Shown here one piece after another: positions 3,019 to 29,803 of a DNA stretch of 32,268 nt. The first letter of the stretch is position 1, and each line of letters begins with the position of its first letter. Under the pieces are notes generated by a model, which worked only from the letters and a program-made list of their open reading frames with translations, had not been told where the DNA came from and searched no databases. The DNA comes from Sulfurovum sp. (GTDB lineage: Bacteria > Campylobacterota > Campylobacteria > Campylobacterales > Sulfurovaceae), in NCBI GenBank assembly GCA_013139765.1, contig WTAE01000144.1, forward strand, positions 1 through 32,268, in the 5' to 3' direction. A program made the position numbers and the translations under genes.

Positions 3019-4848
3019 ATGATGTCCAGTAAAATAAACAATCTACTTTTTATTGTTTTTTACTCTCTCTTGAGTACTTTAACTTTTGCAGACAATACAG
3101 TTATGCTTGAGAATAATCAAGCGCGATATGCGAACTTTACACTCTCCTATTTTGAAGACACATCCACCAATCCGCTTACCTTTAATGAAGTACCATCACA
3201 AACATTTAAAGAGATAAATAACGCTTTTGCCTTTGGATACAACAAAAATAACTTCTGGTTTCACATTGAAGTGCTTAATGATTCGCAGCAGCCAAAAAAG
3301 ATGTTTTTAGAACTCACAGAAATCATACATAAAAATGTTGACCTTTACATTGTTTCAGACTATGACGATGACTTAATTGAGAAAAATGGACTCTCTGTAC
3401 TTATAAAAGAGCGTTCGGTAAAAGTTTCGAATCCAAGTTTTGCTCTAGAGTTTGCTGGCAATGAAAAAAAAGATATCTACATCAAACTCTCCTCTCTTTA
3501 TGGAGTGTTTGGCTCTTTTGTTTTAAAAACACCAGAAGCTTTTCATGCAGACAATCGTTTCAATAACCAGCTCTACATGTTTTACTTTGGCGCCATCCTT
3601 ATGATTGGTCTTTATAATCTTTTTATCTTTTTATATCTTAGAGAAAAAGTCTATTTATATTATGTCTCTTATGTTTTTATTTTTGCGCTTTGGATAGCAA
3701 ACTACAAAGGCGTATTACTCCCTTATACCTCTATGGCTATCTATGATCTGTTTCAAATTGCGATACCCATGTTTTTCACCATGCTTGCCCTCTTTTCCCA
3801 AACTGTTTTAGAAACTAAAAAGTATTTTCCAAGTTTTCATAAAATACTCAATCTATTTATTGGTATATTGATCATCAGTGTAGTGTGGATGCTAGTAGAC
3901 ATGCACACAGGTTTTTACGGTATGAATATTGTGGTAGCGCCATTTTTACCATTTTTACTTTTTGTCGCAGCATGGGCACTCTACAAAAAGCATAAAATTG
4001 CCAGAATATATCTTCTGGCCTTAACGGTTTATCTCTTCTCAATGATCCTACTGAGTCAACTGTACTTGGGCCTAGTCTCTTATAGTATATTCACTTCCAC
4101 GGCACCCATCATTGGATCCTTTTTTGAAATTGTATTACTCTCTCTTCTTTTGGCCTACCGTATCAGTAAATTACGTAAAGAAAAAGAGCGAAGTCAAGAG
4201 AAACTTTTAGCACAAAAAGCAAGTGAGAGTATACGTTTAACACAAATGGTGGAAGACAAAACCATTGAACTCTTAAAGCTAAACGACACACTTAGCATTG
4301 AACTAGAGGAAAAAGAAAGACTGCAACAAACGTTGATGACTGAAGCAAGAACCGATGACCTTACCGGTGCATTAAACAGACGAGCCTTCTTTGAGATGTC
4401 TATGAAAGAATTGGAAACTTCAAAACGCTACAAACATCCTCTCACCTTTCTCATTATCGATATTGACTTCTTTAAAGCCATTAACGACACACATGGACAC
4501 TTAAATGGGGATATTGTACTCATAGATATGGTAAACGTGATTAAGGGAACCATACGTAACACAGATGTGTTTGGACGTATTGGAGGGGAAGAGTTTGCAG
4601 TACTGATGCCTGAGACAAATTTAGATGATGCCGCGCATTTGGCAGAACGTATTAGGTCAAATGTTTTTGAGAATATAAGCCTCTTGGATGAGGAACAAGT
4701 TTCCATTACCGTAAGTATTGGGCTAAGTCTCTTAAGAGAAGAGGACAATATGATTCAAACACTCTTAAGACGTGCAGACTTGGCACTCTTTAAAGCCAAA
4801 GAAAATGGGAGGAATCAAGTATGTATAGAGGAAGATGTAGCTGCGTAA
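3019..4848 (+). CDS. Diguanylate cyclase with 7TM-DISM sensory module and GGDEF domain
   Basis: 7 hydrophobic segments, coiled coil, then TDDLTGALNRRAFFE...FGRIGGEEFAVLMPE...ADLALFKAKENGRNQV. Confidence 0.92.
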   Translation: MMSSKINNLLFIVFYSLLSTLTFADNTVMLENNQARYANFTLSYFEDTSTNPLTFNEVPSQTFKEINNAFAFGYNKNNFWFHIEVLNDSQQPKKMFLELTEIIHKNVDLYIVSDYDDDLIEKNGLSVLIKERSVKVSNPSFALEFAGNEKKDIYIKLSSLYGVFGSFVLKTPEAFHADNRFNNQLYMFYFGAILMIGLYNLFIFLYLREKVYLYYVSYVFIFALWIANYKGVLLPYTSMAIYDLFQIAIPMFFTMLALFSQTVLETKKYFPSFHKILNLFIGILIISVVWMLVDMHTGFYGMNIVVAPFLPFLLFVAAWALYKKHKIARIYLLALTVYLFSMILLSQLYLGLVSYSIFTSTAPIIGSFFEIVLLSLLLAYRISKLRKEKERSQEKLLAQKASESIRLTQMVEDKTIELLKLNDTLSIELEEKERLQQTLMTEARTDDLTGALNRRAFFEMSMKELETSKRYKHPLTFLIIDIDFFKAINDTHGHLNGDIVLIDMVNVIKGTIRNTDVFGRIGGEEFAVLMPETNLDDAAHLAERIRSNVFENISLLDEEQVSITVSIGLSLLREEDNMIQTLLRRADLALFKAKENGRNQVCIEEDVAA

Positions 4849-9920: not shown

Positions 9921-10077
9921 CTGTTAATTTTTAATTAACCCTATGTTACCCTCTATTAACGCTATCACATTATAATTCAATTAGAAAGACTAACAACCGA
10001 GTATCTTCTTACTCCTTGTCCAAAAGTTTGTAATCTTCCCTTGTTTACTTGGTTATGGTCTTTTCTTTTACTTCCCC
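9921..10077. repeat. ~157-bp direct repeat, copy A (intergenic; candidate small RNA or mobile element)
   Basis: Aligns by eye to 11297-11455 with about 10 substitutions and 1 indel; includes GTTAATTtttAATTAAC and TATAAT. Confidence 0.9.
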
Positions 10078-10146
10078 TTTAAAATCCCATGTAACCTTAC
10101 TTTCAATCAAATAACTGTGATATATGTCCTATTATGCATTACTTGT

Positions 10147-10788
10147 TCAACAGTTCCCTACAGCCCATTCTCTATGTGTGTTTGCTACATTAAAGAGATC
10201 TCCACCCTTACTTCCTTTTGGATATTTATTTAATATCGCTTTATTTTCAACTTTTTGTAAAATAGGTACATGCAACGAACAATGTATATATGCTTCTTCA
10301 ATCTCAACAAGTATATAGCTGACTGTTTTAAACTGTGGCTTGTTGATCAATAACTTTTCATAAAGTCCCTCAAATACTGACAAATCTTTTTTTAAAGACT
10401 CTTTTCTTATGATCTTGGCTTTCCCATTCACATGAAGACCTACTTTTGTTTCAAAAAAATCTATAAAAAGCATCCCTATATTTGGATTCTCAGATATATT
10501 TCCCATACTTGCCATCACGCCATTGCCAGTATACTCAGGATAAATCAAATGCGTTTCATTTATAACATGGACAAAACCTTTTTCCCCTGCACGAAAAGAA
10601 GAATCACACTCCCCTTTACTATCTGAAGTTGAAATGAATATCATCTCTTGATTTGCAATGAATTCTTGCATCAATGGCGCAAGATGGGTCAGTACCTGTT
10701 TATTATAGAAGTTCAAGGCATCTTGTGTAGTATCAAATATTTTCTGAAGTTTTTTTTCACCTTCTGAACCTGGTGTATGCGTATTCAA
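10147..10788 (-). CDS. Pyridoxamine 5'-phosphate oxidase-like FMN-binding protein
   Basis: MIFISTSDSKGECDSSFRAGEKGFVHVINETHLIYPEYTGNGVMASMGNISENPNIGMLFIDF typical of PNPOx-like family. Confidence 0.8.
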   Translation of the reverse strand: MNTHTPGSEGEKKLQKIFDTTQDALNFYNKQVLTHLAPLMQEFIANQEMIFISTSDSKGECDSSFRAGEKGFVHVINETHLIYPEYTGNGVMASMGNISENPNIGMLFIDFFETKVGLHVNGKAKIIRKESLKKDLSVFEGLYEKLLINKPQFKTVSYILVEIEEAYIHCSLHVPILQKVENKAILNKYPKGSKGGDLFNVANTHREWAVGNC

Positions 10789-11177
10789 TTTTATCCCTTA
10801 TGTATTTTATTTTTAATATTTAAATGTTGTAGCTGGTTGAAATTTATACTTTCAAAACTGTATATAAAACAACTCAATATGTTTGATGGTATCAAACTCT
10901 TTTATTCAGTATAATCATTTGACAACTTCTGAAACAAGACCGCAATATGTCTATAATTTACTTCATAATCGCTTAAAATACTTTCAAATTGTTGTGCCAA
11001 TAAATTATAAAATTCATACATTACATAATTTAATTTATAAAAGACAAAAGTTTCATTTGTTAAAGTATACTCTATATATTTTCTTTTAGTTTAAGTGGCT
11101 AATCACTGATACTAGCATCATAAAGTAACAGTGCATTCCTCCTGTTCCCTCAAGTATGTTATCCCTATTATTTACTC

Positions 11178-11201
11178 GTTTAACAGCTCCAGCTGTTAAA
11201 C
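11178..11201. repeat. 24-nt palindrome, family copy 1 (CC centre)
   Basis: GTTTAACAGCT-CC-AGCTGTTAAAC, perfect 11-bp arms. Confidence 0.9.
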
Positions 11202-11259
11202 CTCTATCGGAATCTAATTGTATAAACAAGTTTTTGTATGTAACACAACTCTGCTAGGG

Positions 11260-11283
11260 GTATCACAGCTGGAGCTGTGATAC
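11260..11283. repeat. 24-nt palindrome, family copy 2 (GG centre)
   Basis: GTATCACAGCT-GG-AGCTGTGATAC, perfect 11-bp arms. Confidence 0.9.
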
Positions 11284-11296
11284 TAAATATAGATAT

Positions 11297-11455
11297 CTGT
11301 TAATTTTTAATTAACCCTATGTTACCCACCATTAACGCTACTATATTATAATTCAATTAGAAAGGCTAACAACCGAGTATCTTCTTTACTCCTTGTCCAA
11401 AAGTTTGTAATCTTCCCTTGTTTACTTGGTGATGGCCTTTTCTTTTAACTCCCCC
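11297..11455. repeat. ~157-bp direct repeat, copy B, upstream of antiporter gene
   Basis: Near-identical to 9921-10077, same orientation. Confidence 0.9.
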
Positions 11456-29444: not shown

Positions 29445-29495
29445 ATTCTGATCCCTCGCATCACAGCTCCAGCTGTGATGCATATATCAGAATTT
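29443..29495. terminator. Extended stem-loop directly after sufT stop, containing palindrome family copy 3
   Basis: Outer arms AAATTCTGAT/ATCAGAATTT around inner 24-nt palindrome. Confidence 0.6.
29458..29481. repeat. 24-nt palindrome, family copy 3 (CC centre)
   Basis: GCATCACAGCT-CC-AGCTGTGATGC, perfect 11-bp arms. Confidence 0.9.
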
Positions 29496-29724
29496 CCCTC
29501 TCCAACACAACATAAATCCTACAAAAACCCGCTCTTCCCATCAATCACACGAACGTGTGCACTGTCTCTGTGAACGACCTTATAAGCAAAGCGATTCGAG
29601 AACAGAGACGACTTTTGTTTTCCTTTTCTAGAAAAGGAAAGAGAGAAACATCACCACAATTAAGACTTCAAGGGAATTAAAAAAATATATACAAACTATA
29701 TAAGCAAAAAAACCACTGATAATT

Positions 29725-29748
29725 GTTTCACAGCTGGAGCTGTTAAAC
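29725..29748. repeat. 24-nt palindrome, family copy 4 (GG centre)
   Basis: GTTTCACAGCT-GG-AGCTGTTAAAC, one arm mismatch. Confidence 0.88.
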
Positions 29749-29752
29749 GAGT

Positions 29753-29803
29753 AAAGAAAATGGTAGAAATCAAGTATGTTTAGAGGAAGATGTAGCTGTG
29801 TAG
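29753..29803 (+). pseudogene. Fragment matching the 3' end of a GGDEF diguanylate cyclase gene
   Basis: 46/51 nt identical to 4798-4848; encodes KENGRNQVCLEEDVAV* versus KENGRNQVCIEEDVAA*; stop codon just upstream in frame. Confidence 0.85.

Follow-up and report, generated by a model that had tools for sequence, protein, structure and literature searches.

A stretch of 32,268 nucleotides from Sulfurovum sp. (contig WTAE01000144.1), referred to here as the window, carries almost the same intergenic sequence twice, raising the question of what these two copies encode. A sequence-only reading had described a direct repeat, copies A (9921–10077) and B (11297–11455), with 93% identity, and suspected a non-coding element downstream of a shared TATAAT. 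The repeat is real. A repeat search aligns 9921–10010 with 11297–11386 (93%) and 10009–10077 with 11386–11454 (94%), the two blocks being split by a single extra T in copy B. The TATAAT hexamers sit where they had been placed (Table 1), and no ORF lies over either copy, the longest start-to-stop run inside the RNA being ~10 codons. The similarity is not due to chance, as copy A used as a query returns copy B with E = 2.7e-62 and three more copies with E-values of 2e-42 to 1.5e-25.

Copy A sits 3' of a tRNA-Gln/Met/Met cluster, a pyridoxamine-oxidase-like gene lies between the copies, and the ORF ~120 bp downstream of copy B is, read from its sequence, presumably a KefB-type cation transporter. 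Neither copy adjoins a porin gene. The window also contains near-palindromes around CAGCTCCAGCTG (TTTAACAGCTCCAGCTGTTAAA, ATCACAGCTGGAGCTGTGAT) at 11175–11213, 11247–11283, 29455–29493, and 29718–29763. These form two pairs, one just upstream of copy B, and are possibly a small mobile or REP-like element. A 50-nt repeat (4798–4847 vs. 29753–29802, 92% identical) corresponds to the 3' end of a GGDEF gene, recurring beside one of the CAGCTCCAGCTG palindromes.

A multicopy family in Sulfurovum

From their sequence, the two copies appear to be genes of an undescribed predicted sRNA family found in many Sulfurovum. The window's own genome (2.2 Mb in 262 contigs, 88.5% complete) holds at least six copies, of which five are close (A, B, C5, C6, and C99) and the sixth, on contig C250, is longer and was found by covariance model. 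C5 precedes argH, tRNA-Phe is close to C6, and C99 is flanked by a 5S rRNA gene and a porin gene. Among 78 sampled Sulfurovum genomes the family is present in 51; the exact loop pattern occurs in 39, with 0 hits for a reversed control pattern, and a covariance model (E ≤ 0.01) identified 12 further genomes. No family match was found outside the genus in 377 genomes of the order's other genera and 387 of the class, two overlapping samples searched with strict filters. An exact loop scan of 85,462 GTDB species representatives gave 53 matches, 39 of them in Sulfurovum/Campylobacterota records that all score ≥37 bits with the R1 covariance model. The 14 matches outside Campylobacterota were rejected as chance, with R1 scores of at most 19.3 bits or no score. 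Rfam searches over the repeat, at the gathering threshold and at E ≤ 5, gave no relevant match, and no description of this RNA family turned up in the literature. This is a new predicted sRNA family, with a proposed mode of action of a known kind and no sequence relation to any Rfam family.

Promoter, structure, and strand of the predicted RNA

At the start of copies A and B stand four TTAAC-like boxes spaced by 11, 11, and 10 bp, and 10 bp separate the end of the fourth from the -10 hexamer. The sequence-only reading had described a dyad at this point. The sequence GTTAATTtttAATTAAC does open both copies, but the palindrome is not kept across the genus whereas the 11-bp-phased boxes are, and the dyad is better read as boxes 1 and 2 of the series. 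In 45 upstream regions from the genus, aligned on the -10 hexamer itself, the same phasing recurs with T-rich positions at -47, -36, -25, and -15 from the -10 start, and the -10 reads TATAAT or TATACT in 45/45. The RNA stem begins 7–9 nt 3' of the -10 in these copies, opening with AGAAAG, which places the structured RNA directly downstream of a promoter of its own. Tandem direct repeats with 11-bp spacing are the arrangement of the Pho box, and the repeats here, ending ~10 bp before the -10, follow the layout of OmpR/PhoB-type promoters. The TTWAC boxes therefore represent, on their sequence, a putative binding site for a response regulator of this type. A search of 12 genomes with TTAAY-N6-TTWAC-N6-TTAAC plus a -10 returned some of the sRNA promoters mixed with a different TTAACAC box before TonB-system-like genes, and therefore no regulator is named from the pattern. 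Tandem TTAACAC-N4-TTAACA boxes were also observed in relatives (L187, L192, L194, L186) upstream of TonB-system-like genes (exbB-like, tonB-like, and receptor-like), and apparently mark a response-regulator regulon distinct from the sRNA boxes.

The predicted RNA is ~85–90 nt long in this genome and ends in a two-part terminator-like stem. Copy A folds at -18.4 kcal/mol (z -2.6) and copy B at -21.0 kcal/mol (z -2.8), with R1 matches at 9984–10064 (60.7 bits) and 11360–11441 (61.6 bits), respectively. The loop, UUUACUCCUUGUCCAAAA..GUAAACUUCCUUGUUU in general and UUACUCCUUGUCCAAAAGUUUGUAAUCUUCCCUUGUUU in the copies of this genome, is nearly invariant and contains the motifs CUCCUUGUCC and CUUCC(C)UUG. 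The 3' side of the stem ends in CCUUUU with a U-rich tail. A terminator scan (consensus, loop limit 8) found none because the loop enclosed here, at ~40 nt and followed by the tail TTTTCTTTT in A and B, is longer than the limit of the scanner.

Table 1. Positions of the promoter elements, predicted RNAs, and loop motifs of the two copies in the window.
Feature	Position	Strand	Description and basis
Copy A upstream boxes	9924–9960	+	TTAAT 9924–9928, TTAAC 9935–9939, TTACC 9946–9950, TTAAC 9956–9960
Copy A -10 hexamer TATAAT	9971–9976	+	TATAAT/TATACT in all 45 aligned genus copies
Copy A predicted sRNA	9983–10070, ends approximate	+	two-part stem, loop, then TTTTCTTTT; fold, R1, covariation
Copy A loop motif 1 UUACUCCUUGUCCAAAA	10009–10025	+	complementary to UUUUGGACA...AGGAG of the DUF3373 porin leader
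Copy A loop motif 2 CUUCCCUUGUUU	10035–10046	+	second CU-rich anti-Shine-Dalgarno motif (sequence)
Copy B upstream boxes	11300–11336	+	TTAAT 11300–11304, TTAAC 11311–11315, TTACC 11322–11326, TTAAC 11332–11336
Copy B -10 hexamer TATAAT	11347–11352	+	sequence; genus alignment
Copy B predicted sRNA	11359–11447, ends approximate	+	fold; R1 match
Copy B loop motif 1	11386–11402	+	repeat alignment, sequence
Copy B loop motif 2	11412–11423	+	repeat alignment, sequence

The structure is maintained by compensatory change. Between A and B, two of the substitutions 3' of the TATAAT compensate each other within the outer stem (AAAGAC/GTCTTT vs. AAAGGC/GCCTTT), exchanging A-U for G-C. Over 25 sequences, 5/10 outer stem pairs change on both sides, with 31 double-change cells vs. 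10.7 ± 3.4 in shuffled alignments and a covariation score of 0.305 vs. 0.160, values reached in 0/500 shuffles. Outer stem cells are 94% paired, falling to at most 55% when the two sides are slid. As G.U cells outnumber A.C cells by 38 to 1 (27 to 1 with the first pair left out), the RNA was assigned to the + strand, which also has the lower mean folding energy (-21.6 vs. -18.2). The RNAs of relatives are often longer, with one or two extra downstream hairpins whose loops repeat CUUCCUUGUUU. Judged by sequence, copies A and B have two CU-rich motifs and the longer relatives three or more. A longer class of the sRNA (L176:820–1020; L013, L022, L052) was also observed, in which a further hairpin is added on the 5' side and the 3' side forms a double hairpin, motifs resembling UUCCUUGUUU recurring in its loops.

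The search for relatives in Campylobacterota thus found homologues across the genus in which the promoter is conserved, the stem covaries, and the loop hardly changes, and a plain segmental duplication is therefore excluded. The same features support the suspected non-coding element, and its transcription is inferred from them.

Complementarity to a porin leader and competing explanations

Several copies of the family lie just upstream of a gene whose product begins MKKI..SLVAAMA. In the window's own genome this product is a DUF3373 protein (PF11853, E = 1e-105) that also weakly matches a 50 kDa outer membrane protein of solved structure. DUF3373 corresponds to TCDB 1.B.62, a putative outer-membrane pore family (PMC4827864). 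The leader of these genes has the consensus ACAUGUUUUGGACAAACAU...AAAGGAGUAAACAUG. Around its Shine-Dalgarno this leader carries the split sequence UUUUGGACA...AGGAGUAAA, to which the contiguous loop UUUACUCCU-UGUCCAAAA is exactly complementary. The complementarity covers the ribosome-binding site of a putative outer-membrane protein. In the window's own genome the second half-site reads AGGAGUUAA, leaving one mismatch in the pairing. The split pattern TTGGACAN{5,25}AGGAGTNA occurs in 50 places in the 78 genomes, 33 of which are directly before DUF3373 genes. Of 52 start regions sampled from the window's own genome, the DUF3373 leader gives the strongest pairing, at -24.1 kcal/mol, and in 7/8 genomes the cognate sRNA-leader pairing beats dinucleotide shuffles of the leader (0–19 of 1000 as low). 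The leader also forms a small hairpin of its own, which would compete with sRNA pairing.

It is proposed, with a probability of roughly 0.72, that A and B are multicopy, response-regulator-driven sRNA genes and that their RNA represses the DUF3373 porin in trans without Hfq. The computed elements of this proposal are the family, strand, structure, promoter, complementarity, and Hfq absence, the last resulting from a search of eight Sulfurovum genomes with 0/8 positive and control rings found in five. An OmpR/PhoB-type response regulator would probably activate the genes by binding the phased TTWAC boxes, which would replace a -35 element; the identity of this activator and repression as the direction of the effect are both inferred. 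The RNA would start 6–8 nt after the -10, and its two-part stem would double as a terminator while presenting the nearly invariant loop with its two CU-rich anti-Shine-Dalgarno motifs. Motif 1 is predicted to pair in trans, without Hfq, with the split site UUUUGGACA and AGGAGUAAA over the DUF3373 ribosome-binding site, which would hide this site and block porin translation. Other porins may come under the same control through motif 2.

The distribution of site and sRNA is consistent with this proposal, with exceptions. Of 50 scored genomes with DUF3373, 33 have both the half-site and the sRNA, eight have neither, six have the site only, and three have the sRNA only. The half-site goes with the sRNA (33/6 vs. 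3/8, Fisher p = 6e-4) in a test that ignores shared ancestry and includes some sites called by eye. Two genomes with the sRNA (G083, G009) read TTGGACG where a close relative with no sRNA found (G078) reads TTATATG, the leaders being otherwise near-identical. The TTGGAC half-site is kept with no sRNA detected in G005, G077, and G086 and in the less complete G079, G092, and G099, and in view of these six genomes conservation of the DUF3373 leader may have an additional cause. G005, G077, and G086 are the main counter-evidence. Conversely, G034, G072, and G096 have the sRNA and lack the TTGGAC site, their leader reading AACARGAAGGAUUA. The sequence suggests a change to pairing with motif 2, which is UAAUCCUUCCUUGUU in G072 and its relative G035; shuffles were as good in 163 of 1000 cases, giving no statistical support.

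An sRNA whose main role lies elsewhere, with CU-rich loops that recognise either a protein or a wide range of Shine-Dalgarno sequences and a porin match that is one of many or incidental, is considered unlikely. Such a role would fit the repetition of CUUCCUUGUUU, up to three times in motif 2 and the extra hairpins of relatives, and the complementarity seen at start regions of further genes, among them OprD, Porin_5, and OMP_b-brl, part of which come from genomes with no detected sRNA. However, the match at DUF3373 spans 18 nt in split form and recurs in 33 genomes, a specificity well beyond that of a general anti-Shine-Dalgarno match.

The element could also be a cis-acting leader, a terminator or attenuator upstream of the next gene with a loop that pairs with the Shine-Dalgarno of that gene in the same transcript. 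Among 65 distinct copies, 13, including C99, immediately precede a DUF3373 porin gene that shares their strand and has a complementary leader, and 13 others are upstream of argH, as expected for such a leader. Most copies, however, precede other genes, the window copies adjoin no porin, and the porins keep a promoter-like conserved stretch of their own. In G024 and G060, each a single contig, no sRNA copy is linked to the porin: it lies at 48 kb in G024, with sRNA genes at 1,397 and 2,391 kb, and at 2,115 kb in G060, with sRNA genes at 1,405 and 43 kb. The putative target mRNA is thus encoded elsewhere in both, its status as target being read from the complementarity, and a leader acting in cis is quite improbable.

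A functionless mobile repeat (MITE or REP-like) or a recent segmental duplication would account for several near-identical copies per genome, including C5 and C6, which are identical over 125 nt and located at contig ends. Such an origin is highly improbable given that neither shared terminal inverted repeats nor target duplications were seen beside A and B, the stem covaries while the loop stays, the promoter is conserved, positions upstream of argH and DUF3373 recur across genomes, and the sampled order and class genomes hold no copies outside the genus. A CsrB-like sponge for CsrA on the - strand, where the loops carry several GGA motifs and read ACAAGGA, near the CsrA site consensus, is scarcely credible, as the G.U bias and the mean fold energy favour the + strand, which also carries the -10 and the U-tract, and the GGA loop motifs exist on the - strand only.

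Further candidate targets and comparison with known sRNAs

The proposed repression of DUF3373 by motif 1 leaves a second loop motif to consider. Genes with an exact ACAAGGAAGT site immediately 5' of the start codon include members of OprD and Porin_5, and start-codon scans with the complements of motif 2 and of contiguous motif 1 returned a scatter of genes in which outer-membrane proteins were visibly represented. These matches are kept only as a lead because they also occur in genomes with no detected sRNA; by sequence, motif 2 may act on other porins. A broader and tentative idea, with the odds tilted somewhat against it, is that this genus-wide multicopy, Hfq-independent sRNA is an envelope-remodelling switch through which one response regulator represses several unrelated porin families, with sRNA and leaders co-evolving in separate clades. 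DUF3373 would then be controlled via loop motif 1 and OprD/Porin_5-type porins via motif 2.

The five copies of LhrC (LhrC1-5) in Listeria monocytogenes are expressed in a LisRK-dependent manner, need no chaperone for target binding, and use redundant CU-rich sites to bind the Shine-Dalgarno region and block translation of a surface protein (PMC4132741). The Sulfurovum sRNA is similarly multicopy, with redundant CU-rich loop motifs and a response-regulator promoter that is here predicted. The three UCCC sites of LhrC are spread over two stem-loops and a linker, whereas the Sulfurovum sRNA has one stem with a nearly invariant loop, a split target site, and an outer-membrane porin as predicted target. 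LhrC was absent among the Rfam matches to the repeat, and the Sulfurovum family is restricted to its genus among the genomes sampled. The combination of copy number with redundant loop motifs would make it an independent parallel to LhrC.

OmrA/B are twin copies under OmpR. Together with MicF and RybB they are short, terminator-ended sRNAs that pair near the Shine-Dalgarno of outer-membrane protein mRNAs, as predicted here, but they need Hfq (PMC9988348, PMC12692685, PMC1804206), which was not found in the eight Sulfurovum genomes. They have no sequence relation to the Sulfurovum sRNA and act on a different porin family. RepG of Helicobacter pylori, likewise an sRNA of Campylobacterota, acts on a 5'UTR without Hfq or ProQ, but its site in the tlpB-hp0102 leader is a homopolymeric G-repeat that varies (PMC8322730), whereas the Sulfurovum sRNA is multicopy and its predicted site, within a porin leader, is fixed and comprises 18 nt in split form. 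H. pylori CncR1 is activated by the OmpR-family response regulator HP1043/HsrA, which binds TTTAAG direct repeats with 11-bp centre spacing, a layout like that of the boxes here; CncR1 differs in its length of 213 nt, its target fliK, and its box sequence, which is TTWAC in Sulfurovum (PMC8322730, PMC5253667).

The characterised sRNAs of Campylobacterota come from pathogens such as Helicobacter, and with Hfq and ProQ missing the rules of riboregulation are unclear (PMC8322730). Sulfurovum is a common sulfur oxidiser of vents and sediments, and the predicted sRNA family described here, being multicopy and combining a promoter that can be read from the sequence with a predicted target site open to direct testing, offers a concrete case for porin control in bacteria without Hfq.

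Two further observations concern porin genes. Porin or porin-like genes in L259, L261, L264, L271, L274, L276, and L277 have, whether or not the sRNA is found, a short leader of the form ...AACAAGGAAGT-ATG, and in most of them TATACTTCC lies just upstream, forming an inverted repeat with the Shine-Dalgarno region. The DUF3373 porin gene is often directly 3' of the 5S gene of an rRNA operon (L243, L244, L246, L247, and L180 of the window's own genome), and in L180 the sRNA lies between the 5S rRNA gene and the porin.
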